Positions 2,699 through 63,175 of a stretch of DNA of 64,000 nt are shown here, piece after piece (position 1 is the stretch's first letter; each line of letters begins with the position of its first letter). The notes under the pieces are model-generated. The model saw nothing but the letters and a program-made list of their open reading frames with translations. It was not told the DNA's origin and ran no database searches. The DNA comes from Tribonema minus. Its lineage: Eukaryota; Sar; Xanthophyceae; Tribonematales; Tribonemataceae. Location: assembly GCA_017506865.1 (NCBI GenBank), contig JAFCMP010000224.1, positions 434,001 to 498,000 of the forward strand. Direction: 5' to 3'. The translations under genes and the position numbers were made by a program.

Positions 2699-4322
2699 AG
2701 AGCAAAAGCAGGCGATTGTATGTTTCTGTTTGTAGCAGCAAGGCTCAGCACAGGGGGGGTGGGCCAGGGAGGCACGGGCGTCGCCGACTGAAATTCAAAC
2801 TTGAGCAATCAGCGATGGCACATGTTGCAATGCAGACAGATGACGGAACGTACAACCGCGTCACACCTAACCCTAGACCTCAGGTGGCACGCACACAGAC
2901 CGACATGCGCATAACCGCACAGGCACCTCCTCAAAGGCATTACGGAAAGAGCCGCGCCGTCTCCAAATGCCGGCACCCTGCAGGATGTGCTTCGCTCATA
3001 CGGTATGTCTGCAAACACGCGCAATACCTACATGCCCCCCGCCCCCTCAATGTCGTTGCGGAAGAAGCGCGCCGTCTCCGCATGCTTCGCTCGTACAATA
3101 TGTATGCAAACACGCGCAACACATGCCCCCCCCCCCGCCAAACCCACGCACCTCCTCAAAGTCGTTGCGGAAGAAGCGCGCCGTCTCCATGTTGACGCCC
3201 ATGGCGCCGAAGACGATGGCGAAGTTGTCGTCGTGCGAGTCGTACACGTCCTTCAGCTGCACGAGCGACGCCTGCCGGCAGATCTGCGCCGCGACCTCGT
3301 TGTGCGGCAGGCCCGCCGCTGAGAACAGCGGGATCTTCTGGCCGCGCGCGATGGAGTTCATCACGTCTATCGCGGATATCCCCGTCTGGATCATGGCCTT
3401 GGGGTAGTCGCGGCACGAGGGGTTAATGGGCTGCCCCTGGATGTCCAGATAGTCCTCGGCGAGGACGGGGGGGGCGGAGTCGATGCACTTGCCGGAGCCG
3501 TTGAACGCGCGCCCGAGCATCTCCTCCGAGATGGCCATCTTGAGCACGTCGCCCGTCATGGAGATGCGCGTGTTCTTGTTGTCGATGCCGGAGGTGCCCT
3601 CGAAGACCTGCACGACGGCGCGCGAGCCGAAGACCTCCAGGATCTGCACGGGGGGGGGAGGGGGTGTGTGTGTGACGTGCCACATACTAAATGTAAGCAT
3701 TGAAGTGAGGTACCGGTGTTGCGGATGCGCCGGAGGTGGTCGGGGGCGAAGCTGCGCCCGGAAAGTGCACAGGGAGATACGACACCCATGTAGCTGAGAG
3801 CATCAGCCGCAAGAGGTTACTGCTGCTGACTGCTGCGCGCATGTTGTGCACAGTGCGACTTCAGTAAAGTTCTTCATCGCTCGACAGAGCAGACTCACCT
3901 GCCCCTGCCGCTTCTCCCCGGATGCAAGAGTCAGGTCCACGATCTCCGCGTATCTGGGTAGCTTGACATTCTCCAGAATGACCAGGGGCCCGTTAACGCC
4001 GCTGATTGTTCTGTACTCCATGCGTGGCTCCACATGGTAATCCCTCACTACCTGTTGAGAGGCATAAGAGAAGCAGCCACTGCATCAATCAGTTTGTGTG
4101 CGCTCGTGCATCTATCTCTGCTTGCACAGTGCACGGGCTCAGAGCCAATTCTGTTGGAAGCTGCGCTTCCAAGCAAGTGCAGAGGCACTAGTGCAACGTT
4201 GCAGATTGGTCAAGTACCACTTTGCAATCGTTCCGTTTGGGTTCTTTGGGACATGCAACTACGTGCGTTGACGTGCTGAAAATCCTTACCGCTGCTACAG
4301 CCGGATCCAAAGGCCCCGACAT
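1824..4322 (-). CDS. ATP6V1B: V-type H+-ATPase subunit B, 3' end missing
   Basis: Non-catalytic B subunit of the V1 sector, needed for ATP-driven acidification of vacuoles and endosomes. Five exons on the minus strand: 4322-4290, 4051-3899, 3643-3152, 2612-2508 and 1955-1824, each with GT-AG borders and phase-0 joints, giving 305 codons. The start codon at 4322 is chosen because an 11-codon first exon joins in frame to [18 protein letters not shown]. Diagnostic blocks are [84 protein letters not shown] and [20 protein letters not shown]. The family is about 490-510 residues, so roughly the last 190 (after [12 protein letters not shown]) are absent. Downstream there are only exon echoes and a Copia remnant, so the gene is probably truncated unless a very long intron leaves the window. 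It shares a 212-bp promoter interval with APC10. Confidence 0.9.
2918..3129 (-). repeat. Two echo copies of the 3' end of V-ATPase exon 3
   Basis: The end of exon 3 ([13 protein letters not shown], about 3190-3152) recurs in the following intron at about 3085-3045 and 2965-2918. Both copies include the GTCGTTGCGG-like plus-strand core, and the two echoes also share a TGCTTCGCTC-GTATGT-GCAAACACGCGC-AA tail with each other. The outer copy keeps the CTCCTCAAAG-like border. Confidence 0.8.
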
Positions 4323-4534: not shown

Positions 4535-7500
4535 ATGGAGCCAGCGGCCGAGGAATTCGATGCCAACGCACCAAATGTCACGCCGCCGACTGACACGCCT
4601 TGCACTGTCCCCAACACGAGGGAGGTCAGCTCGGAGGCGATCTGGACGCTCAGCACAGCCAAGCCATTGAGCGGTGTCGACCAGATTTTGGATGACAACA
4701 TGGACACGTATTGGCAGTCAGGTAGCGCCTGAAACAATGGTACTTTGCATCTGGATCAGCGTGCAAATGTCGCTAGGTGGAGACCAAAAGAAGCTGCACC
4801 CAACTGCTTGACTTCACCGTGAGATGATGAATCGGGGGTATGACTGACGAATGTGGCCATAATAATGACTTCGACAGGAGTGGCTTTCAGTCTGATTTGC
4901 GTATGCGCTTTGTTGTCCAGTGCAGATGGAGCTTTCCCCCATTACCTTACCATACTGTTCCAACGGAAGATTACGCTCTCAGAGATATCCTTCTACCTCA
5001 ACTTCACCTTGGACGAGGTGCGTGACTATCTTCTTTCGGCACTGTACCACCGATACAATAATATTGCTCGCTGGATGTGAAAGACTTGTGGGTACGGTAT
5101 GGTTTTGCTCCTTCCACATGGCCGTCTCGAGGGCACTGTGAAAATCTCCACATGCACTGAACATGTGAAAGCCACAGGCCAACAAACTCACGGGTGCCAG
5201 CATAGTCAGGGGGAGGCGGTACGACGACCCGCTGTGACAGACGCCGCTTTGACGTGTTTCAGTCCGCAACTTTGTACATCAATTCTCAGCGCGCCAGAGC
5301 AGGCATGCGACAGGAGTGTCATGCTGGCCCTTTCGGCTGCACTTATCGCGCTGCCCATAGAGCCCTACTGCAACCACAACCACCCCAACCCAGCCACAAA
5401 ACGCGCCACACTCTCGACAGCCGATTTCCTCGTCGCAGCGCTCACCCCCCTCTGCCCCCTTAACCCCCCCCCCCCCCCCCCCCCCCCCACGCAGAGCTAC
5501 ACCCCGCTGCAGCTCTCGATATGGGCGGGCAACACGCAGGAGGACCTCGCGGAGGTGCACACGGCAGACCTGCGCGAGCCCGTGGGCTGGGTGAACTGCG
5601 TGCTGCAGGGCGTGCCGGACGAGCGCGGGCGCGCGACGCCGCTGCGCGCGCGCATGCTGCAGGTGTGCATCGTCGTCATGCACCAGAACGGCCGCGACCT
5701 GCACATACGCCAGGTCAAGGTGCGTGCGGCGCGTCGCTGGTTAAAAATGAAATTGAAGTACTGGTGCGCGCATGCTGCAGGTGTGCGTCGCCGTCATGGC
5801 ACCAGAACGGCCGCGACCTGCACATACGCCAGGTCAAGGTGCGTGCGGCGCATCGCTGATAGAAGTTTACATCGAAGTACTGGTGTGCGCATGCTGCAGG
5901 TGTGCATCGCCGTCATGCACCAGAACGGCCGGGACACGCACATACGCCAGGTCAAGGTGCGTGCGGCGCGTTACTGGTGGGGGGCTTGATTCTGGTTGAA
6001 GTTGAAGTTGAAGTATCGCGCAGGCTGCAGGTGTGCATCGCCGTCTTGCACAAGAACGGCCGCGACACAAGTTGGTGCTGGATGAAGTTGTAGTTCAAGT
6101 AGTACCGTACCGCGTATGTGCATTGCCGTCATGCACCAGAACGGCCGCGACGCGCACATTTGCCAGGGTGGTGCGTGCGGCGGCGCGGCGGTGGAAGTGA
6201 TGCTGGTTGAGGTTGAAGTTCAAGTAGTACTGTAGCGCACATGCTGCAGGTGTGCGTCGCCGTCATGCACCAGAACGGCCGCGACTTGCACATACGCCAG
6301 GTCAAGGTGCGTGTCGTACATCTCTGGTGGGAGTTTTGATGCTGGTTGAGGTTGAAGTTCAAGTAGTACTGTAGCGCACATGCTGCAGGTGTGCGTCGCC
6401 GTCATGCACCAGGACGGCCGGGACACGCACATGCGCCAGGTCAAGGTGCGTGTCGCGCATCGCTGGTGGGGATTTTTGATGCTGGTTGAAGTTGAAGTTG
6501 TAGCGTCGTGCACCAGGACGGCCGGGACATGCACATGCGCCAGGTCAAGGTGCGTGCAGCGCGTCGATGCTGATTGAAGTTCAAGTTGAAGTAGTACTAC
6601 AGTGCGCGTGCCGCAGGTTTGCATCGCCGTCATGCACCAGGATGGCATTGCCGCGCGCATGCGCCAGGTCAACGTGTCTGCTGGTTGAAGTGGTCGTATG
6701 CAGCGCGCTGCCATGGCTGCATGTTACTGCGCAAAGCGCACCAGAGCCGCTGGCCAAAGTTGCAATACTGGCGCGCGTCCTGCGGCAGCGCGCATGCGGC
6801 GTGCGTGTGGCTGTGCTATGCGCCAGAGCGGAGGGGGCGCGCACGTGTTCGCCGGGTCAAGCTGTCGTGTCATTGGTACAGTTCGCTGTGCAAAGCGGTG
6901 TCATTGCTACGGATGGCGGTGTCGAGCCGCTTGCTAAAGCGGCACATTGCTGCTACATCAGTATAGATGGCAGCGTAAGCTGCTTGCCACATCAAGTACA
7001 CTGCTCTAGCCTTTTAATGAATTCTTGGAGAGCACCACGCGCGGCACCTAGGTCACTATGCGCTCACCGCTTACAATTGCAATGTCGTGTGAAGGATGCA
7101 GTAAGCGAGCGCGCCAATTCTGTTGGTGATGGAAGATCGACGAGTACATTTAGCCGGTACATACTGTAACATACATCACTGGCGGCCCCCTATCCCTGTG
7201 TGGCATGACGTCGTCGAGTGTACATGACAAGGCCTGTCAGTTATTATGTACACCGTTGCCGTGCCACAACAATATTGAAAGTTGTGCTTTAAGGACGCGG
7301 GCTCTCCGCAGGCATCTGGGGCATAGCAAGAAGCGACATGGTTGCTGTGAGAAAATAGAGGGCGGTGGATTACTCTCTGATCTGAAGGAGCATCAAGGGC
7401 TCGCAGAAACTCCTGAAACCTGACGCTGCCCTACCCCTAGGGCATGGACTCTGTATCGTGGAACACCTCATCGTTCAACATGAGGAAAGCCTTTTGCAAT

Positions 7501-7679
7501 TGCATGGTGCGTTGACAGCCACGACTTGCCAGCATTGCTCAGCACCAACCCGGCCGCCGCCGCACGCCCCCCCTTTTCTCGCGCAGGTGTACAGCCCGCG
7601 ACACGTCCCCGCGCAGCTGGACACGAGCCTCCCGCCGTGCACCTCCGTGGAGTTCACAAGGTTTGCCACGATTCGGTGA
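4535..7679 (+). CDS. APC10: Anaphase-promoting complex subunit 10 (DOC1)
   Basis: Substrate-recognition subunit of the APC/C ubiquitin ligase, a single DOC domain that helps bind D-box degrons. Exons 4535-4721, 4926-5017, 5495-5719 and 7587-7679 join in frame to 198 residues, close to the family length (human 185). Landmarks are WTLSTAKPLSGVDQILDDNMDTYWQ split across the first junction, DGAFPHYLTILF, SFYLNFTLDESYTP, SIWAGN, VHTADLREPVGWV and HQNGRDLHIRQVK. The last exon ends in FATIR, matching the Ile-Arg tail by which APC10 docks on TPR subunits. The intron before the last exon (5720-7586) holds about nine copies of the end of exon 3, and three of these could be spliced in without changing frame. 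The primary exon has DLH where copies 3 and 7 have the family-typical DTH. Confidence 0.92.
5720..6870 (+). repeat. Array of about nine echo copies of APC10 exon 3 3' end
   Basis: Copies begin near 5769, 5886, 6018, 6110, 6236, 6374, 6505, 6604 and 6776. Copies starting at 5886, 6236 and 6374 are intact: a GCTGCAG acceptor-like border, 57 nt in phase 0 (for example VCIAVMHQNGRDTHIRQVK), then a GTGCGT donor. The copy at 5769 has a one-base insertion, and those at 6018, 6110, 6505 and 6604 carry gaps or lose the donor. The copy at 6776 is barely recognisable. Spacers contain GTTGAAGTTGAAGT-type runs and CAAGTAGTACTGTAGCGC. Confidence 0.9.
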
Positions 7680-7699: not shown

Positions 7700-7785
7700 A
7701 GAAGCTCCAAGCACCAGCCTGCCGGCGTGCGCCTTGTTGAAAGTTCACAAGGTTCGCGACGAATCAGCGATGCGGCGCACTGATG
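7700..7785 (+). repeat. Echo of the terminal APC10 exon
   Basis: Just past the APC10 stop, about 7723-7772 repeats the CCGTGCACC-TGG-GTTCACAAGG-TTGCCACGATTCGGTGA end of the last exon with about 75% identity. The homologous stop is out of register. Confidence 0.6.
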
Positions 7786-10111: not shown

Positions 10112-13100
10112 TCAGGCGTGCTTACCGCCTCCACTGTTGGAGGCTGAGCCCGTGGGGAAGGGGGGTGCGTCGACTGTGTTGATGAGGCCATCGCCATTCT
10201 GCGAAGTAGCAAAATCGTGGCATGAGAGCACGGAGGTTGGGGATTAGATCAGTGCGAGGTGTTGCGTGTTGTTGGCGTGACCTCATGCACTAAAAGGCAA
10301 TCAAAGCATCGACATTTGCATTGGTGCTGTCGTTACCTGTTGTTGCAGGTCTGACGCCATCGGGCATCGTGATGAACCAATGCGGTTTTTACTCTGGCAA
10401 ATCCCACTTGCACCGCACCTGCAGGCAGACTAATACGCAGCCTCATGCAGGCTGAACAAAGCCAGCGCTGCCACTGACAGCATTGACACAGGCAGGTTCA
10501 CACACAGCAGGTGCGCAAAGGGGGGACCCTTACCACGTCCTGAAGGGGGACGACCGCGGGCAGGACCTGAGGCAGGCCCTGGGGCGTGTACTGCAGCAGG
10601 CTGTCGCGGAACGCCTCGATCTCATCGGCAGAGTTGAGGTCCCACTCGCCGTCGTCCTTGTCCTCCAGGAACCAGGTGCTGCAGTTTTGGCAGAGGTGAC
10701 GTGCCAGTGGGGGGCAGAGGGGTTGAGGTTTAGCTCGCGACACCCGACGCATGACCTAAGTACTGCTTTCATGTGTGTTGATGCGGTGAGCTGCACCAGA
10801 GCGCATGCTACGCTTCGTGCCAGCAGTGCTCAGGTTGTGAAAAAAAGACACACGTGCCAGTGCGCCAAAAAGTCACACAGCCAAGTAGCACAAACAGGCG
10901 AGGGTCCGCCAATAAGCTTCGGGGATTATGTGCACGAGTCGATTAGACATTTAGGTTGTCTATTCAGTTGAGTGGTAGTGAATGGTGCTGTCATGAGCTG
11001 AGCAATACTTACGTGAATCTGCTCAGCTGAACATGCTCACACAAATCTGCTCACATGAAGCTGCTGAGTTTTGCATGTTGGAAGTCTCCACAACCCTCTC
11101 ACACCACGTTGCAGCAAAACGAGTCCTCCCTGATTCATTCCCCAACAAGTCCATGTTCCACTGAGAAGCTGCTGGTGGTAGCAAACACAACTGCACTGGG
11201 CGCACATCGCGTCATCGCGTGATGCTTACATTTGTTCCACGCGCGGGTACAGGGTAGGGAAAGCAGCAAACGCGTCTCGGATCCAGCCCGCCTGTGCACA
11301 CAGGAACCAAAAGCTCAAGCGTACAAAATGCGAAGTCAGAAGCCAGTTCAAGTACATCATCGCAAGTGGTACGGTTTCAGCGCACACGTCCGCTCTGATA
11401 GCCGAGTGCAAGCACCTGTGGATGTGCAGATATTGCTGCTATGTAGGTGATGACGCCCAAGCTCACGCCGCCGTTGATGATCAGAAAACAGAAATTGCTG
11501 CTATGAAGGCGATGACGCCCAAGCTCACGCCGCCGTTGGTGATCAGAAAACAGGGATGGTGCCTGGATGACCCAGCACGTGTAATCAAAGTGCGAGTTGA
11601 AGACGAACACAAACACTCGCTAGATCAGCACACAAACCCTCAGACCCGAGGGCAAATGCAGACCTTCCGTCGTCGCTGACTGCAGCAGACGAACACAAAC
11701 ACTCGCTAGATCAGCACACAAACCCTCAGACCCGAGGGCAAATGCAGACCTTCCGTCGTCGCTGACCACAGCAACTGACTCAAACTTCTGTAACCAACTT
11801 CAACTTGCGACGCTCCACACGCACCTTGTCCTCGCCAGCCATGCCCACGGTGCCCATCTCGCCGACGCCGAGCGGCGCGCTCGTGGGCAGGGCGGCCATC
11901 TGATCATACCCTAATTGGAAGACGTCGGGCCACGTCTGCCACTGCGTGTGGAACTGGTCCGTGCCGGCGCGGTTGTAGGCACTGCAGACGACCATGTCAA
12001 CGACGTCGTCGCCCGGCCACCATGCCGAGAACGGCGTCTTCTTGTCGTTGGCGCCGTTGACGCAGTTGTAGCCCAGCTGTGCGGGTGCGGGCGCGCGCGG
12101 GTGCAGAATATGGGCGCATTGGAGATTGGGTTAGAGTCAGAGTTAGAGTAAGGGTTAGGGTTAGGATTAAGGTTAGGCGTAGAGACTGCGAAAGCGCATA
12201 TATAAATAGTGCGGTTCTTTTACTTCAAGTTGGAAGCTGCGCATGCGTGCGCGTGCGTGCGTGTGGCGCGGATGGATGCATGAGAATCTGACCATCAGCT
12301 CAGGTTTGCACTTCAAGTGTGAAGCTGATGTTCGGAGGGTCGCTGCATCGTAGCGCCGCCCTCATGTCACTGGACACTGCCGCTGCGACTACAAACATGC
12401 GAGTGTCAGCCAGTGACACTGCCGCTGCGACTACAAACATGCGAGTGTCACTGCATTCAACTGCACATCCAACCAGTCTGCCATCTGTGGCAGGTAAAAG
12501 GCGCACGGCTGAGAGACCATGCCTGCCCAGAACAGGTGCGTCACCCGCGGCAGTCGTAAGCAACCTCACCTGGAACTTGATGTTGGCGCCCTTGGCGGTG
12601 AGCACCTGGTACACGTGGCGGTAGGCCCTGATGAAGTTCTGGATAGTGTTGGTGCCGCCCATGTACGTACCCCACGGGTACCAGTCGCCGTTCTGCAGGG
12701 TCGCAATTAATCGCAAAAAAGGCGCGGCGGACACATAGGGGTGAGGGCCAAGGCTGAGATTAGGGTTGGGGCTGGAGGGCACAGCGCATGTATCTCACCT
12801 ACGTACACAAGCAACATGCTGGGCAATCGACGACACACCCACATCATCGCAAGCGCGCTGGGGGAAATGGTACCCAGGCTACAGTCATGCCTTCATGAAT
12901 GGTCAGCATCCATGCACGATGAGGTCACGCTCGCATGGCAGCAATGCTCAACTCATGCAAAGTGCCACACAGCTGTTCTATGCATCGGCCGCGCCAAGCT
13001 TGCAAGACCATAGGCAGCTGTGTGAGTGTCATGCAACAACGCGCGCGTCGATGCACAAGCTCAGGCCAAGAATATGTGATTGCAGCCATGAACTGGCGAC

Positions 13101-14835
13101 CATGAAGCGAGAGCACAAACAAGGCTGTTTCTGAACTTACAAATTTGATGCACAAACACAGGCCAAGCATACGTGGGTGCAGCCATCAACTGGCAGCCAT
13201 GCAGCGAGCGCACAAATAAGGTTGTTTCTGAACTTACAAACTCGTGCATGGGCCGGACCCACACTTCGCGGTTGCCATCCTTGATGAGTTCATCCGCAAA
13301 CTTGTACAGGTACTTGTCGTAGAGGCCGTCGCCGATCTGCTTCAGGTTGGTCGTGAGGGTGTCCAGGAACTGGACGACAAGGACCTGTGCACACACAACA
13401 CAACATGGACATGTGTGGTTGAGCATCATCGAGGCAAGAGGTTTCCTCAGAGTCGGCGTGATGAAAGAGCATTTCGTGACAGCAGTCATCAGGTTGAGCG
13501 CCGTCGAGGCAGTATGATCAATTCAATCAGAGGCGGTCTGATGCGAGCTGTTTGTGGCAGCAATGGCAGGGTGAGATGAATGATGAGACACAGTACATGC
13601 GTTGTCAAATGTCAACCAATGCACGTGCGGTCGTTGTTCTGGCCATCAGCAAGAGAGGGAGGGTGCTGTCGCCCAACGTCCTCCCTTGTGCCAGCGTTGT
13701 CTGTGCGACTGCCTGATGTGGTCCTCATGGTTATTCAAACAACATCTGCTCCAGTACACGCAGCTTGGACACACACCTGATGGCAAACAATGGCCTGCAG
13801 TGTAAGACGCGCATGTGCACACAGTAGCAACTGATGTCGATCATGCTGCTGATACAGTTGATGATACTCACCACTTTGAAACCCTGGTCCAGGTAGTTCT
13901 TGACGAGGAAGGGGTACCTGTGGCAGCGCTCAGCAGCACAGGCAAAAACAGCTGAGAATGTGGCCGATGATTGTAGTGCATGGGTATCAAGCAGCATGTC
14001 GACGTCAACGCAAAGCGAGGTGAGTATGCTACCAGGCCGGCTATCGTAACCTGCGCTGAGTGGCGACATGTGCTGCAGTGCCACCGCTTCACAGAAGGAC
14101 AAAAAAGTGCAATATCAGCATAGCACATTCAAGAACCATGCATCTCTGGCATAAGCGACCGTTAAATGATAAAAAAAAGCTGGCGTGCCACACGACTGTG
14201 GCACAAGGCAGTTGTCTGTCTCACCTCATGGTCTTGATGAAGCCGAACTTGGTGACCACCTGAAACTGGGCGTTGAGCTCCTCTTCTCTGTAGACAGGCT
14301 CCAGTATGTCTGCGATGCCGACATCAAGCAGACCTGGCACGGTGCGAGTCGATGGGTGAGCCTTCCTTGTTGTGGGGACAGGTACTACGTCGCCAACGCC
14401 AGCGTTGGCAGAACCACCGTTCGCGGCAGTGTCAACACCACCGGAAGCAGAGCTGCCGCGGTGGCGAGTCACGCCGTACACTGTCAATGCAGCGACAGGC
14501 AGCAGGGCCAGCAAACAGCACACACTGCCAAACATCCTCCGGTTGCTCTTGCGAGCAGCCGCATCCTTGGATGGTGCGCAGCTTGGCACGCAACTAAACG
14601 GAGCGCGCGGAGATTGGGAGCCGTCGGCAGTAGTGGTTGCGACGGCGGCCGTCTCGACGTCAGCAGGCATGGTTGCGGTACGCCTGACCGATCCGAGCAC
14701 CGGCGTCCCCTCTCGGTGCCCCGTGTGCGCGCTGTGCTCGGTGGTGTCCCCGGCTAGTGTTGCTGCAGGTACTGTGTGCTGTTGCTCTGCTGATGTGTGA
14801 GTGAACATCTTGCGCGCACGCTCGGCGTGATGCAT
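10112..14835 (-). CDS. GH26-like glycoside hydrolase with N-terminal membrane anchor
   Basis: Probable beta-mannanase or related endo-glycanase. Exons on the minus strand: 14835-14225, 13917-13872, 13384-13238, 12692-12570, 12076-11825, 11291-11230, 10678-10534 and 10198-10112; phases agree and give 490 residues. Alternative starts are 14808 and 14670. A hydrophobic segment at residues 101-122, preceded by Lys/Arg, suggests a type II membrane protein with a luminal or extracellular catalytic domain. The signature VWVRPMHEF/NGDWYPWG spans two exons; Glu267 of RPMHE fits the GH26 acid/base and Glu382 of GVGEMGTV the nucleophile. The C-terminal ITWFLEDKDDGEWDLNS block fits the last strand and helix of the barrel. 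The final small exon (NGDGLINTVDAPPFPTG) is less certain. Introns hold several tandem duplications. Substrate cannot be read from sequence. Confidence 0.78.
11420..11765. repeat. Two pairs of tandem duplications in a GH26 intron
   Basis: A unit of about 70 bp containing GATGACGCCCAAGCTCACGC occurs at about 11448 and 11511. A second unit of about 86 bp containing CACTCGCTAGATCAGCACAC occurs at about 11602-11680 and again at 11688-11765, nearly identical. Confidence 0.85.
12120..12182 (+). repeat. Interstitial telomere-like tract
   Basis: Degenerate run of GGGTTAG / AGTTAGAG / GGATTAAGG units inside an intron of the GH26 gene. Confidence 0.7.
12360..12450. repeat. Tandem duplication of about 45 bp
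   Basis: GACACTGCCGCTGCGACTAC followed by AAACATGCGAGTGTCA occurs twice in direct succession within a GH26 intron. Confidence 0.8.
13040..13237 (-). repeat. Echo copies of the end of GH26 exon 3 with its donor
   Basis: On the minus strand the exon end CATGCACGAGTTT plus GTAAGTTCAGAAACA recurs about 99 bp downstream as GTGCATCAAATTT plus GTAAGTTCAGAAACA. A third, weaker start (TTGGCCTGAGCTTGTGCATC) follows. Confidence 0.75.
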
Positions 14836-18959: not shown

Positions 18960-20900
18960 AATAATAGCCGTGCGGGCTAGGGGAAAGTCCTAGGGACGCG
19001 TGCAGATAGAGTGCACCATGGTGCCACAAAAAGCACCAGGAGCATTGTGTTTGCTCACAAGCTGTGGAAGTTTGATGACAGGGTTGTTGTATTGCAAACG
19101 TGTTAGAAAGCTGGTCATGCAGACAGGCACATTGTTGTCAGTGCACAGCAGCAGACTCTGAGGAAGCAGGGGGCACAGGAGGCGGCACATGTGACAACGT
19201 GTGGAATGAAATAAGCAATATCTTACAAATGCCCAAAAGCTGTTGCAAAACAACACGGGAGCATAACTTTCCTCTAAACTTGAGAGACTTCAAGCACAAA
19301 TTTCAGCCACACTGAGCAGGTAAGCAGCCATTTCGTGCGTTTGAAGGGCTGTGCGAATCCACTGTGAGTTCTGTGACGACTGCTCCACCGCCTGGGGTTA
19401 TCAAAGGCATAATCACACCCGACGCTGCTTCATTGCACACTGCAGATGTGTATGTTGGCAAGCAGGGCAAAGCAGGAGTTCAGCACACAATGGAACATTG
19501 TATGTCATGGTTGTTGACACCACATTATGTAGCTTCAAACGCATACACTGTCCAGAGGAATGCACTTACTCCACGCAGGTTTTATGGCAGTATCAGAAGT
19601 GTGCTATCACGTCCTGCTGTGCCAGCTTGGTCTGCGCCTCAGCTGCTCTCATACCACATGATGCTGTTGACACCAGTGCGTTGTTGGTATGACCTGGCCT
19701 CTTGAAGAATGCATAACCATGGCACCTGCTGCCAGCTGGCAGTCCAATGCTCACATGCGCCAAGTCAACCGAGCACAACTTGCTGCGTGCTCACTGCATG
19801 CATGGCCCAGTGTGACAGCATGCACAGGCAGCTCCGCAAGCCTCGCATGTTGCATATGTCTTCAGCTGCAGTCAGCCCAAGGCAGTCACCATCGAAACTG
19901 GTGGCAAGGACCGGCCATGGCAGTTCAATGCTCATGAGTCGCCAATTCAACCGACCGCAACCTGATGCGTGCTCACTGCATACACGGCCCAGTGTGACAG
20001 CATGCACTGGCAGCTCTGCAAGCCTCGCATGTTGCACATGTTCTTCAGCTGCAGCCAGCCCAGGCCAGTCGCCGTTGAAAACAGTTGGCAAGTACCAGCC
20101 ATGAAAATTCATGATTGATGGGTCGCCAAGTCTATCGATCGCAGTCTTCTGCGTGCTCACTGCCCTGTTTGACAGCATGCAGCTCTGCAAGCCTCAGGCT
20201 TCTATGTTGAATCGAGGCTCCAGCTTCAGTCAGCCAGGCCAGTTGCCTTTGCGAACAGTTAGCAAGCACCACCTATGGAGGTTCATTGCTGACGGGTCGC
20301 CAAATCAACCGACCACAATTTGCTGCATACCTGCATGTCACCTTAATCACCAGTGCCGTGCTCCTCCTGCTCGTCGAGCAACTTAACTTGGACTTGCCTG
20401 CAGCAGTCCATCGTCGGAACACAACACGACACGCTCCGTCTGTGAAGGCAGCCCACGCCATGGGTACAGCTTGCTCAACAGCTGGGCTTATGCTGGCAGA
20501 CACGTGTACATAGCTGAGCCTTCATGCTCAGCTCACAAGCCAACCAAGTTGCTGCTTCCCCGCCAGCATTTTATTCGCCGTGATGCTAGTCAGCGCCAGC
20601 ACTTGGTGCCACACGTGGCTCAGCACTGCTTACCGTGAAGCAAGGACTGTTGCTGCACCTCACTCGGCATCAGTTCTTCGCGTGCTGCGTTAGCCTCGCT
20701 CAGGCAGCTCCACTGTGTTGTCCTCCGCGAGCTGTGCCGCACGGCTGCTCCTTCGTGCTGTGCGCGCCTACGCTTTGAACAAGTCTCACCACTTGTTACA
20801 GGCTCATTGGCCTCAGCTGCACTGCTCTCGTTGTCTGTAGCTGTGGTCATGGTGTGACATGAATACCGGCGATTATATCGGGTTTTCGGTGCACAGACAC
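18960..20900. repeat. Tandem segmental duplication, unit B
   Basis: Diverged second copy of 16675-18890. It contains four of the ~180-bp repeat units (about 19724, 19893, 20077 and 20251) where unit A has two. GTTTTCGGTGCACAGACACA occurs at 18890 and again at 20882. Confidence 0.7.
20637..20850 (-). other. Putative first exon, minus strand, unit B
   Basis: An ATG at 20850 opens about 71 codons rich in Glu, Ser and Arg (KRRRAQHEGAAVRHSSRR), ending LLHG before a GTAAGC donor at about 20636. The homologous stretch in unit A (18180-17990) has a related but altered frame. No function assigned. Confidence 0.35.
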
Positions 20901-20999: not shown

Positions 21000-21286
21000 T
21001 TATACCTAACAGTATGGTATGTACCATGCACCAAACAGGATGAGAAACAGGCTTCTAGTTCAAAAGTTATTGCGATTTTGGGTCTTTTGCACGATGTGCA
21101 AACGGAGACCTAGTGACTTCGTCCCTAGGAACTAGTGACTTCGTCCCTAGGAATGTTTATAGCAAACAGTGTGGCTGCATCGTGCATCAAACAGAATGAG
21201 AAACGGGTTCTAGTTCAGGAGTTATTGCGATGTAGGGCGTCTGGCACGATGGGTAAACGGAGATCTAGTGACTTCGTCCCTAGGAA
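21000..21286 (+). repeat. Tandem ~130-bp repeat with a CTAGTGACTTCGTCCCTAGG motif
   Basis: The motif occurs three times (about 21110, 21132 and 21264). Two flanking units share CAAACAG-ATGAGAAAC-GG-TTCTAGTTCA-GAGTTATTGCGAT. The array stops exactly where the MYB direct repeat begins. Confidence 0.85.
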
Positions 21287-22056
21287 CACAGATCAGTGGC
21301 ATCTTGACAGAGCGGCTGGTAATCCTTAGTTGCTGCAGTCATGCCAGTGACTTGCTGGTGCAACGCGCTGTAAACGTCATGCGCTGTGTGCGTTGAGTCA
21401 CAATGCTAGGGACCATCAGCGCCTCCAAGAGATCTCGGCTGGGGGGCTGCCATTTGCAATGCATGTATACACACGTGATCATGTGGTAGCACTGGCAGCT
21501 GACCGCCTGCTGCAGATGCGCAAGTCATTACCACGGACTATGAGCGCCATGAAAGCGGTCGTCACGTCGTGGAGCAGCAAGAACACTGAGGTGGGCGGGT
21601 GCGAGCAGTCGATGCACATCAGACAACGGCAATTGCTGTTTGGTGTCGTGGCTAGTGGCGTAACATTGATATGCCATTTGTCCATGGCAATGAGCACGTG
21701 TCCACGTCCACAGCCCCTTTTTGGCCCCGAATTCGAGTTTGACGTGTGTGTAGAATAAGCACGTACACTTCATGTATGCGCAAAAAGGCCCCGTTAAAGT
21801 CAACAGCCTCAACCGTGGCTTGCTCATTAGGGGTGCTAGGCAGAGGATAGACACGACGAGCAAGAAGAGAGCACAGGGCAAGGTCAGGACATCGGTCAGC
21901 ATCAAGCACCCTCCTGAAATTTTCTCCGCAGCCTCCAGCGCGACAGTCTCGTCGCAATGGACACCGCAGTGCCACAGCAGGCCATGCAACAGAACGGGGT
22001 GGCTACTACAGGGGCGCCCTCAGCCACAGCGCACGTGCCACCCGTCAGCGTGTCCC
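21287..22056 (+). repeat. Direct repeat, copy 2: promoter and 5' end of the complete MYB gene
   Basis: Partner of 15827-16594, 5,460 bp downstream in the same orientation. This copy continues into the full coding region. Confidence 0.95.
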
Positions 22057-25000: not shown

Positions 25001-26315
25001 TGCTCAACGCCAAGGGCCTCCTGCTGTTCCTCAAGCGCAGCCCCAAGGGCGACGAGGCGCCCGTCAACGTGCTCAAGGACGACGGGTGAGCGCCATGGCA
25101 GCGCTTGGCGCATTTCCGCTTCGATGTCGTTTGCGCGAGGCGCCGTTGTCGGTATTATTCCAGGTGCTTGGTTACTGTATACAGTATGTAGCAGCTCGCT
25201 GGCTCACTGACGCGGAAGTTCTTAGCTCCGAGGGCGACGAGGTGCCCGTCCACGTGCTCAAGGACGACGGGTGAGTAGCAGCGAGTGGCAGCGCTCAAAC
25301 TTTAGTGGTTGCATAGCAGTGCTCGTTGTGCTTCGCTCAAGGGGCAGTGGCAGTACAAAGTTGATGCAGTTGGTGCGCAGCAGTGTTCGTTGCTATGCAG
25401 TGGGGCAGTGCGCAGCCTCAGGGGCGAGACGGCAGCGTGCTTGTGAGGAGTGGCAGCACTGACCATGTAGTTGGTGCCCAGCATTGCTCGCTGTGCGGAC
25501 TAAGTGTGGCAGTGCTCGTTGATGTGACGTTGCCCCTCATCTGGCCACCTTTGTCCCCTCTGCAAACCCTGCATGATTCGGCTACGTTCTGCTGCGGATG
25601 CAGCGGCGTCAAACTGCCCAGTGCCCAACAGTCCTGACACGCCCCTTCAGAAGCACGGCGACTTCAATCACTGCGCTACCCGGGCTCCACAAACTCTACG
25701 CTCACCCCCTCATCTCCACCCCCCCCCCCCGCCTCTCCCGCGCCCCGCAGCACCATCGTGACCGAGAACGGGAGCTTCGTCATCGACGCCGCCACCGCGG
25801 CGGCCATGGCGGCGGCTGCTGCCGACTCCGCGCTCACCGCCGCCCTGCAGCCCGCGACGATCGCCGCTGCGCTGGCCGCTGCCCCCACACCCATGCCCGC
25901 CGCCCCCAACGGCGCCGCGCCCGCTGCCGCCGCCGCCGCGCCCGCGTCGACGCCCATGGAGATCGCCCCCGCTGCTGCCGCCGCCGCCAGCAGCGCTGCT
26001 GTGCCTGCGGCCGCGCCCACGACGGCGGAGGCGGCGACGGTGGCGGCGGCGCTCGGCGCTGGCTCCGCCGCCGCGGTGCAGGCGGCGGCGGCCACTGCTG
26101 CGCCCACCGTCGCCGCCGCCGCCGTGGAGGTGGAGGCAGCGGCGCCGGTCGCCGCTGCTGCGGCAGCCGTGCAGGAGGGCGGCGCGGCGGCGCCGAAAGA
26201 GGTCGTCGTGGTGGAGCGCGAGGGCCAGGCGTTCCTCGAGTTTGTGAACACGCACCACATGGAGTGCGACGAGCAGCAACAGCAGCGCGCTGCCGCCGAG
26301 GCGCCGCTCTCGTGA
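21957..26315 (+). CDS. R2R3-type MYB transcription factor
   Basis: Nuclear DNA-binding protein. Exons 21957-22300, 22401-22653, 22949-23215, 24187-24315, 24907-25085 and 25751-26315 join in frame to 578 residues. Two Myb repeats: R2 has Trp at 77, 97 and 116 ([29 protein letters not shown]), and R3 has Trp at 129, 148 and 167 ([38 protein letters not shown]). The first R3 position is Trp, as in animal and protist MYBs, whereas land-plant R2R3 proteins usually have Phe or Ile. The rest is low complexity: Ala-rich blocks, a GTKRPAED stretch that may be a nuclear signal, and a conserved-looking [20 protein letters not shown] helix in exon 5. The very Ala-rich exon 6 ends [14 protein letters not shown]. 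The promoter and first 33 codons are duplicated 5.5 kb upstream. Confidence 0.92.
25222..25275 (+). repeat. Echo of the end of MYB exon 5 with its donor
   Basis: GGGCGACGAGG-GCCCGTC-ACGTGCTCAAGG through ACGACGG plus GTGAG repeats the exon 5 end (25046-25090) about 180 bp into the intron. The frame ([14 protein letters not shown]) is preserved. Confidence 0.9.
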
Positions 26316-40315: not shown

Positions 40316-41813
40316 GTATGTGTGAACTTTCTATTGATGATCGCTTAGTGCGCGAAAACGCCCAGAAGGTAGACGTCCAGCTTGCTGCTTCACGAAAAGG
40401 TGTGCTCTGAAGTGCGTCACCGTGCATTGTGGTACACAATTTTGTGAGTGTGTGTGTGTGTGTATGCGCGCGCGCGTACGCGCGTGTCGTGGGGGCGGCA
40501 AGCGCTGTTCACAGCGCTGCGCCTCTCCGGCGCGGTGTGCCGTGGCCGTTGTCAGCAAGGCGTGGGAGTGGCGGTGCTCTGCATGGCTGCAGCAGCCACA
40601 AGCACACCCCTGCACGGGTTTGGTGCAATCCGCAGACTTCGAGGGTTGGGTTCAGGGTTAGAGTTAGGGTTAGCTGACAAAGCGATGTATCGCCTGCTGT
40701 CAGCATCAGTTGGCGTCCCACGTGGAACGTTTGAGTGCCGGTAGCGGCAGCAGCGCCGGCGGCGCCGCGCGCTGCGCCTCAAGAACCCGAAGGCGCAACT
40801 GCGGGCGGAGCTGATGGCTGTGCGGCGACAGCACAGCAGACCGCCGCGGCAGCAGCGGCAGCGTGTGCTGCGCCGTCAGCTCCGCGTGCGGTTGCGCCTG
40901 AGCGGCAAACTTGTTGTGCTCTGCACCCCACAGCGCTCTTTTGTGAGCAGTCCCTTCTTGCAGCGGTGTCTGCGATTTTCTAGATGGCAACTTGTGCATT
41001 CGTGTCCTGCTGCTAGCCTTGCCGTTGTCAGATTAGTTTGATCGTATCATGACGTGCATCAGCAACTTCCGTCAGGTGTCAGTGTATGGCCTGCAGTTCG
41101 CAGGTGCTACAATTCACTTCTAAGGATCACCCATTGCTGCCCATGCAGCCCCCCCCCCCCCTTCCCCCTGCAGGCTGGTGTCTGCCAGTTCAGTTGGCAG
41201 CGCATGCTGATGCGCGTGCTGCTGCCCTGCCACTCCATCTCTTGTCAGGTGCAATTAGCCAAAGCGCAGGGGACGCTGGAGGCCGGCGACGGCACGCAGC
41301 AGCGGCAACGGCTGCAGGGGCAGCAGCAGTACCGTTCACACCGGGACTGACCGCGCGCCGCCGCCGCTGCCGCTGTGCGCCAGGTGTTGTCGATACAGCG
41401 CATCGCGGTCCCTGGTGTCGCACAGGTTCAGATGCCGAGATGCGTTGTATCGACAACACCTTGCCGCACGCACCGAGCAGTGGACAGAGCTCGCCGCTAT
41501 ACCAAGGCTCGAGGCAACGAGAGTCGCAGTTGTTGAGCGTTGGTGAGGAGGTGCATCAGGCCTCCCGAGCGCTGCGACAATTTGCATGTACCGAGGGAGC
41601 GCGAGCACGATCGGGCACATGCGCTGTTTAAATATGCCCCATTTACATTGTGCCATGCAAGCTTCGGTATTTGATTTGCTGTTGAGAGGGTGCTGCCATA
41701 GGATCGTGTCACGGTGTGAGTGACCAAGTGCCAATGCTGCTTCATCTGTGCAAAAGCATACATGCCAGTGCTTACATTAGACCCTTGCGCAGTCTGAATC
41801 CGCGTAGGAAAGC
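40316..41813. other. Intron or spacer with possible further exons
   Basis: Includes a GT/GC-rich run at 40448-40490, a GGGTTCAGGGTTAGAGTTAG tract at about 40649-40672 and a C run before 41173. About 40745-40920 reads either as a basic helix or as an Ala-rich stretch, depending on frame. About 41174-41250 reads AGVCQFSWQRMLMRVLLPCH after a good acceptor. None could be joined confidently to the upstream gene. Confidence 0.3.
41379..41462. repeat. Hairpin with ~23-bp arms
   Basis: AGGTGTTGTCGATACAGCGC at the left pairs with GCGTTGTATCGACAACACCT at the right, one mismatch, with a loop of about 35 bp. Confidence 0.85.
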
Positions 41814-42180
41814 TGTTTGTCAGCAGCAGAACATGGGCGGTGCTGCCTGCAGGTCCTGACGGCTACTATGGACGATGCCTATTGAAGTTCTCACAGAAAA
41901 CCAGAGTTAACTACCCTAAGTGCATCCTGTATGGGTGATGGTGCTGCTTTCTCGATAATGCAATGTCAACGTCGTTGTTCCTCCAATCCGATGCGATGTC
42001 ATAAATGTGGTTTTGTGCTGGTATAGAGAAGCTGTATGTCAGCAGAACATGGATGGTGCTACCTGCAGATCTTGGCGCTACTACGGTTGATGCCTGTTGA
42101 AGTTCTGACGTAAAACCACGGGCCATCCTGCAGGGGTGGCGGTGCGGCTTGACAATGTTCAATGACACACGACAGTGGCG
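41814..42180 (+). repeat. Tandem duplication of about 160 bp
   Basis: TCAGCAGAACATG-GGTGCT-CCTGCAG, TGAAGTTCT and the CAATGT-CAA block occur in order at 41820-41970 and again at 42037-42160. The second copy leads directly into the coding-like stretch at about 42176. Confidence 0.7.
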
Positions 42181-48780: not shown

Positions 48781-51700
48781 ATGAAAAGAGCATACCCTGT
48801 TGCGAGCGAGCAAGACCGAGTCGTAGAGCCCACGACATGCCTGGACGATGGTGGCACCAGCGGCCAGTTGACGACCTCGACGGCTGTCAGGCCGGACACC
48901 AGCGTGGCCTTCGTGGAGGACTGCGACCAGCCGGAGGATGCGTTGTCGAGGATCAACCAAGCTACCGTTTTTGGCTCTGGTTACACAAACATACCAGGCT
49001 TCCTCACCAAGACCTATGAGATTTTCTCAAACTCTAGCTTCTCCAAGCTCTGCGGATGGGGCGTCAACGGCGACACCATTGTGATCTACAAGATCCCCGA
49101 GTTCGCCAGCGAGGTGCTGCCCCAGTACTTCAAGCACAGCAACTTCCAGAGCTTCGTGCGACAGCTGAACATGTGCGTACTTGGAGAGTGTGGACTTGCC
49201 TGCTACACCTGGTGGGCTATGCATCTGTATGCGCTCATCCAACTGCTCTTCTTCTTGCATGTAGTGGCGCTGGACAGTTTTCCATGACATGGAAGCTTAA
49301 AAGCAAGCAGAGCAGGAGACGTAGGACATGCATGCATGGGAGGGGCCCACACCAGTGCCCACTGCTGCTCGATGCGCTTGCAAACGCTGCATCTCAGACC
49401 CCGCTCTTGCGCTTGCTCCTTCGTCCTGAGGGGAGCGAGGTGCACACGTCTGCAGTCAGGCCGACCCGCCATGCAAGTCCTCGTGACACCGCTGCAGCTG
49501 CTCATTCTCACCCACCCCGCCCCCCCCCGCGTGCACGCCGCCCTCCTGCCGCCGCAGGTACAACTTCCACAAGACGGTGCAAGACCCCACGCACGGCGAG
49601 TTCCAGCACCAGTACTTCCGCAAGGGGCGCCCGGACCTCCTCACCCTCATCAAACGGAAGGCCGGCACACCGTCCACGACTGCGAGCGGTGCGTCCACCG
49701 CCTCCGGCAGCAGCGGCTCAACCAGCGCCGCGACGTCAAAGTCAACGCGCACCAGCGTCACGGGGGACGCCGGTGGAGCGGGGGCGGGCAGCGGCGGGGG
49801 GGGCAACAAGGGGGCGGCGGCCCCCTCTTCAGGGGGGCGCGGGGGGGGGGGAGGGGCGGGGAGTGGGGGGGGGGGGGAGGGGTCGACGCCGCTGGCGCGC
49901 GCCATGGCGGAGGCGTGGCCGCAGCAGAAGGACAAGATCACCACCCACACCGACGCGGTCATCACGGAGGTGATTGCTCGCTGCTGCGCTTGGTCTCACC
50001 AGTGTGTGTGTACGGTATGTGCCTTCAAGTTCAGAGCAGCGGTGGGAGGAGGGGGCGGTGAAGACTGCGTTGCCTCAAGTCCCATAACTGGCAGCAGAAT
50101 GATTTGTTGAATCTGCGTCAGCGAGCACGAACCGCAGGTGCTGGAGCACTTGATGCCAGGGCGCACACACTCTGCGGTTGTACAAGCCTCTGAGAAGCAC
50201 CCATGCTGCTATCTTCCCTCCATTTCTTATCAGCGGTAGCTCTCCGCCTGCCCCCAACACCGTGTGGCTCCGCGGCTGATGCCACTCCATCGTCGGCGCG
50301 CAATCGCAAATCACTGCTTTTCTGGGGCGTGGCTCGCACAAGCAAGGCACATGCTGAGCGCTGATGCATATTACACGCCACACCCGTCTGCATGTATTGT
50401 GGTTATGCTCGTGGGCACGCCGCGTGGAGCGCCCCGTCTCACGCCGTGCAGCACCGTAGTGAGGGTTTAGTGGCCAGGCAGCACTGCTCAGCCACTGCGG
50501 CACCACTTTGCCGCGCCGCGTGTCACGACAGCTCGTGCAACTTCAACACGTGGCATCCAACGCAGAGCGCTGCACCCAGCGGCTCGTTGTCGCGTGCGCT
50601 GCAACCTCCATAGAGCCTTGTCACCGCAGCTGAATCATTTCTCATCACACCACACCACACCACCGCTTGTGTGTGCAGCTTGTCCAACTTCAACACTGGG
50701 CACGTCACATGGAGCACCGCATCCAGGAGCTCGACGCACAGAACCGCCACCTCACGAGCGCCAACGACACGCTGTGGAAGTCGCTGCAGCGGCACAGCGC
50801 AAGCCAGCTGCAGATGCAGACCAAGATGCAGAAGATCATCTACTTCCTGTACCACGCCGTGCTCACGCCGGAGGCCAAGTCGCAGCTCTCGCAGCTTGAA
50901 GAGAACAGGTCAGGAGCGCTGATGTTAGGTAGGTATGCTATGGTTACATACCCCTCTTATAACTTATTTGACCAGTCAACAGCATGCTCACGCCGGAGGC
51001 CAAGTCGCAGCTCGAGGAGAGCAGGTGAGGAGCGCTGATGCAAGCAAGGTGGTGGTAGGTAGGTTGGCGTGCCATGGTTACATACCCCTCGCATAACTTC
51101 TTGCATTTAACCAATCAACAGCATGCTCACGCTAGGAGCCATGCCCCACCGCTTGCAGCTGGAGGAGAACAGGTAAGGAGCGCCGATGCAAGTAAGGTGG
51201 GAGTGAGTAGGTATGCCTTGGCTGCATGACCGCTGCAGTCCTCTTACAAATGAAGTATGCGGCAGCAGGCTCATGAATCATGTGGCTCAAGGAGAGGACA
51301 AGCGACAGCGCTGCAGAGCACTGGAGGTGGGCATGTATGCTATGGTTGCATGCATACCCACTGCATACCTCATTTTGAGGCTGCAGGCGCAAGTACTTTG
51401 TGCTAGCGGCTGAGTGCAACGCAGACACAAAGTGCCCTCCTCACACTGCGTGCCTGCCCCCAGAACACAAAGTGCCCTCCTCACACTGCGTGCCTGCCCC
51501 CAGAACTCAGCTCTCTGTCACTTTCGCGCTCATGCTTAGCAGCCTCTACGCCTACGCGCAGCATGCACAGCCCTGACATGCCGTACCCGCTGCGGCAGCC
51601 AAGCAACGAGCGCTAGAAGTCACACCGCTCAACGCGCTGTGCAACCTCAACCCTCATCTTCAACTGCGCTGTACCCACCACCACTTCTCTGCGTTGCCCG

Positions 51701-62025: not shown

Positions 62026-63175
62026 ATGTCTATAAAGCTGAAGGAGCTGATCAGGGCCGTCAGAGCCTGTAAAACTGCTGCGGCGGAGCGCAGCGTGGTG
62101 AGCCAGGAGCTGGCCCTCATCAGGACCGCTTTCAAGGAGGAGCAGCTGGAATATCGCAACAGGAATGTTGCCAAGCTGCTCTTCATGCACATGCTGGGCT
62201 ACCCCAGCCACTTTGGGCAGATGGAGTGCATCAAGCTCATCACCTCGCCGGAGTTCACGGACAAGAGGATCGGCTACCTGGGCCTGATGCTGCTGCTGAC
62301 GGAGAAGGAGGAGGTGCTGATGCTGGTCACCAACTCCCTCAAAGTGGACCTCAACTCTCAGGTACCTACATTGCGGCACACACTGCATGTAATCCTGTGC
62401 GCGTTGGTGATGAGCCTTTGCAGATGACACATCACAGAGCTCTTTGCGCAGTCACAGAACAGCAGGCAGCAGAAATTGAGCGATCAGGGTGAGGGTGAGT
62501 GTACCAGGCCTACACATCGCACCAGTTTTTGATGCCAACAACATGCCTGACCATCATGTACCATTACTCATGAGAACTACAGGCAGCTTGGTCCCCCGTC
62601 GCGATTGACACAGAGCTTCACGTTTGCAACACGACCCAGCAATCATGTACGTGGCAGTCACTGACATCTTGGGCTCCCGTTGTGACTGGCACAGAGCTTC
62701 CATCTGCAACACGACCCAGCACTCTTGCACGTGGCAGTCACTGCGTCCGGTCTGGCGAGCCGCCCGCGCGTATTGCTGCCTTCGCGCACAACTGTTGTCA
62801 CATGATACAGCGCACAGCTCCCGTCACCGACTCAGAGCAAACCTGCGCTGCATACTTTCAACACACACGTCGACACATACCACTGCCAGCACAGGCGGCG
62901 GCCGCACTGTGAAGGAGAGTCACATCCTGTACTCTACTGCGCACACATCACCCCCGCTGTTGTTGCGGTTTTGCCAAGAAGGAGAGTCACCATTTGCGCA
63001 ATGCCCTCGCTTGCAGAACCCATTTGTGGTGGGGCTGGCGCTGACGACGGTGGGCAACCTCGCCACGCCGGACATCGCGCGCGATCTCATGATGGACGTC
63101 GACCGGTACCTGCAGTCCAACAACCCGTACCTCAGGAAAAAGGCGGCGCTGTGCACGATCCGCATCCTGCAGAAG
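62026..63175 (+). CDS. AP1G: AP-1 complex subunit gamma (gamma-adaptin), 5' part
   Basis: Large subunit of the AP-1 clathrin adaptor at the trans-Golgi and endosomes. Exons 62026-62361 and 63017-63175 give the first 165 residues; the gene continues past the window. The start [20 protein letters not shown] is the conserved N-terminus. [64 protein letters not shown] and [20 protein letters not shown] follow the family almost residue for residue. The remaining trunk, hinge and ear (about 650 residues) are not seen before the right edge. Confidence 0.93.

Follow-up and report, generated by a model that had tools for sequence, protein, structure and literature searches.

The third intron of the Tribonema minus APC10 gene holds an array of tandem units that are, very probably, neutral fossils of the end of exon 3, copied by tandem duplication across the exon-intron border, and not spare exons in use. 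The array is located in a window of 64,000 nucleotides (the whole stretch of DNA analysed), where it spans positions 5648-6869 and comprises ten head-to-tail units, the first of which lies inside exon 3. The identity of the gene as APC10, proposed in a preliminary description of this DNA, is borne out by matches of the spliced product to Pfam ANAPC10 (E 2.2e-54) and to human APC10 (E 6.7e-46). The gene model, which we infer from reading frame, homology and GT-AG borders, consists of four exons encoding a product of 198 aa, with predicted introns of 204, 477 and 1867 nt in phases 1, 0 and 0. A run of 25 C is found at 5464-5488, immediately 5' of the intron 2 acceptor. The features of the gene are as follows:

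4535..4721, + strand: exon 1 of the spliced model, with the start ATG
4926..5017, + strand: exon 2, as predicted
5495..5719, + strand: exon 3, the final ~72 nt of which (5648-5719) form array unit 1 and code for the HQNGRD loop
7587..7679, + strand: exon 4, as predicted, stop TGA included
7712..7765, + strand: decayed copy of the exon-4 end (7622-7674), 3' of the APC10 stop codon (0/500 shuffles)

Following the exon end itself (U1), the array contains eight clear copies (U2-U9) and a decayed one (U10), and its units share a period and carry exon as well as intron sequence. Tandem Repeats Finder (TRF) reports two periods for it, 119 (score 534) and 139 (score 543), and in a self-BLAST of the window the array is recovered with an E value of 2e-156. 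The exon-derived parts of the units are:

5663-5719, + strand: U1, the 57-nt module of exon 3 itself
5781..5838, + strand: U2, 58-nt module with a one-base insertion, GTGCGT donor retained
5900..5956, + strand: U3, complete 57-nt module VCIAVMHQNGRDTHIRQVK, donor retained
6031..6087, + strand: U4, 3' half replaced, donor gone
6116..6170, + strand: U5, 55 nt with a 2-nt deletion, acceptor-like border gone
6250..6306, + strand: U6, complete 57-nt module VCVAVMHQNGRDLHIRQVK, possible mosaic unit
6389..6445, + strand: U7, complete 57-nt module VCVAVMHQDGRDTHMRQVK
6500..6549, + strand: U8, 5' truncated, donor retained
6617..6673, + strand: U9, donor altered to GTGTCT
6788..6869, + strand: U10, strongly decayed copy

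The earlier count of about nine copies of the preceding exon's end in this intron is correct, because U10 is real (0/500 block shuffles equalled its score). Likewise upheld is the description of three complete modules (57 nt, phase 0, GTGCGT), which are U3, U6 and U7; each is free of stops, with CTGCAG upstream and GTGCGT downstream, and complete length and frame are thereby found in 3/8 copies among U2-U9. The damage ascribed to the other copies was also observed, U2, U4, U5 and U8 being frameshifted or truncated (by the one-base insertion in U2 and the deletion in U5) and the donor being lost in U4 and U9, with no simple decay gradient along U2-U9 (Spearman -0.43, p 0.29). The proposed module border stood in part: 57 nt preceded by CTGCAG are indeed present, but the duplicated exon part is longer (about 72 nt), since similarity begins at about 5648, and the 57-nt "module" is the portion following an exonic CAG codon.

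The splice-signal context of the copies can be read from the exon. In exon 3, CTGCAG is coding (Leu-Gln codons) and lies 57 nt upstream of the real donor, and the intact copies have a 57-nt phase-0 piece with GTGCGT because exon 3 has the same CAG-to-donor spacing; the complete look of the U3, U6 and U7 modules is inherited from the parent exon and as such requires no selection. The donor heptamer GTGCGTG is retained in U1, U2, U3, U5, U6, U7 and U8, and the border CTGCAG/GTGTGC (the slash marking the border) is found in exon 3, U2, U3, U4, U6 and U7, with U9 reading CCGCAG/GTTTGC. Taken over 21 nt that stop five bases short of the border, the pyrimidine fraction is 0.48, 0.48, 0.43, 0.52, 0.52 and 0.52 for U2, U3, U4, U6, U7 and U9, respectively, vs. 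0.62, 0.95 and 0.81 for the comparison set of the three inferred acceptors of APC10. Thus, of the GCTGCAG acceptor-like border previously described, the AG/CTGCAG letters are there, but they are inherited coding sequence, and as acceptors the borders of the copies appear weak, with fewer pyrimidines than the inferred real ones.

Differences between the exon and its copies over U2-U9 amount to 9 synonymous and 34 non-synonymous (9/43, with U4, U5 and U8 counted over their alignable part only), vs. a synonymous share of 0.216 expected if all units were neutral; for U3, U6 and U7 taken together they amount to 3 and 11 (3/14). In the absence of a synonymous excess, coding selection on the APC10 copies was rejected, and the suggestion that selection may act on the array is unsupported, the differences across codons resembling those in unconstrained DNA. 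The observed share also falls short of the 0.355 that a constrained exon accompanied by neutral copies would give (p 0.055). A frame-free codon-phase test of 130 local duplicate blocks placed none of the APC10 blocks below p 0.06.

Some copies are closer to the APC10 family than the exon is. Where the exon has V, all seven copies covering the site (U2-U7 and U9) have A, as does human APC10; where it has L, U3, U4 and U7 share T with the human protein (U2 has the CTG of the exon); and where it has I, U7-U9 share M with the human protein. The claim that two of the copies match the family consensus (DTH) better than the exon (DLH) was therefore confirmed for U3 and U7, human APC10 having DTH. Probably, U3 and U7 fit the family better since the exon changed after those copies arose, a conclusion drawn because copies share A and M with human APC10 at sites where the exon differs. 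The N of HQNGRD corresponds to human Asn147 (counted along the alignment with human APC10), and U7 carries D at the equivalent position. The copied piece codes for the D-box-binding loop, in which Asn147 (human numbering) is important for D-box-dependent activity.

Comparison of the units with each other revealed exon parts that are more alike than intron parts in 8/36 unit pairs (p < 0.05), all of them within U1, U2, U3, U6 and U7, the strongest being U2-U6 (differences at 1/67 in the exon part vs. 17/51 in the intron part, p 1.3e-6). U6 is U2-like in its exon part and U5-like in its intron part (13:0 vs. 5:11, p 1.3e-4), a bias already expected from the decay of the U5 exon part; the U2/U7 contrast for U6 gave 4:0 vs. 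2:5 (p 0.06), and among the nine contrasts in total nothing significant was obtained for U3 and U7. Gene conversion, which had been raised as acting on the array, or another form of exchange within it is possible in view of the 8/36 pairs, but not proven, as the U2/U7 contrast illustrates. This extra exon-part likeness is the observation least well explained by a purely neutral account; likeness beyond simple drift needs either homogenisation of the exon parts or a nucleotide-level constraint.

In the explanation that we favor, intron 3 holds a minisatellite-like tandem array, unit 1 of which would be the functional exon-3 end with its donor. A segment of 118-139 nt across the exon-intron border would have been duplicated repeatedly, by slippage or unequal exchange, placing non-functional exon-end copies in intron 3 and lengthening it. 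Splicing would most likely join 5719 to 7587, as in the gene model, and the copies would drift, may be reshuffled inside the array and would keep older states of the exon; the splicing of the model, the exchange of sequence among units and the duplication order are parts of this account that we infer. It is supported by the lack of a synonymous excess, by the broken copies and the apparently weak acceptor borders, by the restriction of exon and intron units alike to the array (no match outside it in the 158-Mb assembly at E <= 0.001, such counts being lower bounds), by similar duplications in other genes and by the decayed exon-4 end copy that the same gene has after its stop. It is opposed by the exon-part likeness in 8/36 pairs, by a synonymous share (9/43) below 0.355 and by the missing decay gradient.

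A functional role for the copies could take two forms. U3, U6 and U7 might be cassette exons, each supplying the DOC domain with one more 19-residue unit, in agreement with their 57-nt length, phase 0, freedom from stops and GTGCGT donor, and with a U3-insert protein that still matches ANAPC10, in two stretches (197.2 bits). This is nevertheless very unlikely, as codon constraint is lacking, the acceptor context appears weak, length and phase derive from the parent exon, and a doubled strand-loop-strand would likely disturb the beta-sandwich fold. Alternatively, CTGCAG/GTGTGC might be dual-specific: within exon 3 it would serve as a donor (after 5662), and in a copy as an acceptor, so that the copy replaces the exon end; such a swap, if true, would exchange the D-box-binding loop and leave the protein length unchanged. 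Consistent with it are the presence of this border in exon 3 and in five copies (U2, U3, U4, U6 and U7), the ANAPC10 scores of the swapped proteins (186.4, 183.8 and 186.9 bits for U3, U6 and U7, vs. 184.3 for the exon form) and the precedent of dual-specific AGGT sites in the tandem repeats of UBC, as outlined in PMC10809524. The same absence of codon constraint and apparently weak acceptor context, however, make it highly improbable.

Two further explanations concern the origin of the array. Repetition of units within an intron would also be seen with a mobile element or introner family, but the exon and intron units match this locus only in the assembly (with counts as lower bounds), so that this alternative is vanishingly unlikely, and a mobile-element origin was rejected for want of further copies in the 158 Mb. 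Joined haplotypes could yield exon-like copies with divergent intron parts, but a false duplication introduced during assembly is hardly credible for ten units that are each damaged differently, and comparable cases with differing periods occur at many loci.

Local tandem duplication is a widespread feature of the sampled sequence. Approximately 271 kb (the window and 60 kinase/helicase exon loci) contain 73 same-strand local arrays with a median period of 153, and inverted matches in the 60 loci number only 7, mostly counted twice. Further local tandem duplications in the window are located at 1377-1886, 2920-3189, 11427-11785, 13050-13240, 19737-20326, 21000-21287, 25039-25275, 41810-42118, 50860-51212 and 62584-62743, with main periods of about 60-220 nt. 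The edge of the matched exon is copied outside it at 9/60 loci, involving exon ends at L018, L029, L057, L058, L066, L067 and L069 and exon starts at L029, L051, L065 and L066. The kinase exon of L029 (1039-1555 and 1923-2500) has two start copies in its upstream flank and two end-plus-donor copies downstream. Exon sequence is copied downstream at 3/20 UQ_con loci (a sample of 20 of the 36 places found), and at one of these three (L089) the match covers 31 nt and lies within the exon. In several genes, the final 48 exon nt together with the donor are highly alike, and likeness falls over the next 50 nt, the 48-nt comparison being ungapped and thus understating APC10 U2 (insertion), L018 (short match) and L029 (deletion). 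Duplications span 8/47 likely internal exon edges (including an L061 edge absent from the nine-locus list) vs. 1507/16,320 flank points (9.2%), with 3/19 vs. 4.4% for kinases and 5/28 vs. 14.1% for helicases. Exon edges are seemingly hit by a general duplication habit, because they show no clear excess over flank points.

Matches to the NCLDV major capsid family were observed at 10 places (contigs C21, C40, C90, C112, C144, C179, C223, C485 and C541), and endogenous giant-virus elements are likely present in this genome; no APC10 relative was found in the viral contigs. Near-identical kinase loci occur on several contigs. An interpretation of identical-scoring loci as haplotig or allelic pairs was dropped, as these are on giant-virus-capsid contigs or resemble such loci. 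Altogether, 16/60 loci are on giant-virus-capsid contigs or near-identical to loci that are, and 0/16 are among the nine loci with edge copies.

Three helicase genes have exon-end copies with mostly synonymous differences:

L069 1810-1904, + strand: downstream exon-end copy
L058 1306-1391 and 1129-1213, - strand: downstream exon-end copies
L057 1316-1386, - strand: downstream exon-end copy

For the nearest exon-end copy, this trio, which was picked post hoc after its result was visible, yields 16 synonymous and 4 non-synonymous differences (expectation 0.395, p 2.6e-4), and the donor is kept or nearly kept in its copies, which we regard as better candidates for alternative exon ends than the APC10 copies. 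Pooled over ten genes, the nearest copies give 29 synonymous differences and 30 that are not (expectation 0.384, p 0.061, not significant), or 29:28 (p 0.041) if L069 is counted from 1573, its stretch 1564-1572 adding two non-synonymous differences; the other seven genes of the ten, APC10 included, account for 13 and 26. The best match of the L069 copy elsewhere is its own exon, and alignment with the paralogue L065, by eye, assigns six changes to the copy side, four synonymous and two non-synonymous at the copy's 5' end. The frame-free codon-phase test gave 5 of the 130 blocks at p < 0.05, no more than chance, and in 3/5 of these the blocks include an exon-end copy from L069, L057 or L058 (for L058, two copies vs. 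each other).

Overall, such arrays record past exon states beside the living exon and show intron growth via repeated duplication of an intron's own borders, placing donor sites and partial exons in the introns of several sampled genes. One genome thereby offers a test bed for how often exon-end copies turn into real exons. A more far-reaching scenario, which we consider improbable, is that tandem duplication across exon-intron borders keeps supplying the introns of this genome with spare exon ends, a minority of which are adopted as alternative ends (L057, L058 and L069 foremost), and that a rare APC10 swap to U3 or U7 would restore a family-like D-box-binding loop. Use of an APC10 copy, if true, would touch substrate recognition (HQNGRD loop, Asn147).

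What is new is how extensively exon edges are duplicated within a single genome, together with the helicase lead. No report of exon-end arrays in green-algal introns was found among titles and the starts of abstracts, which is no proof of absence. In the potato RdRp gene, as outlined in PMC4974935, one tandem duplication across a border made a new spliced intron; the APC10 array is similar in that a border-crossing segment was tandemly duplicated with its splice signals carried along, and differs in having about nine copies inside an existing intron and in being known from sequence alone. In the polyubiquitin gene UBC, according to the account in PMC10809524, AGGT splice sites of dual specificity form tandem arrays, and the APC10 units are likewise tandem and bounded by AGGT, a potential donor or acceptor; UBC units, however, are coding and spliced, whereas the APC10 copies lack coding constraint and are described at the level of DNA only. 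Tandem duplicated mutually exclusive exons, as presented in PMC9013439 and PMC9741552, share with APC10 the adjoining of homologous exon-like units in one gene, but the APC10 copies comprise only the 3' part of the exon, without its acceptor region, and are mostly broken.
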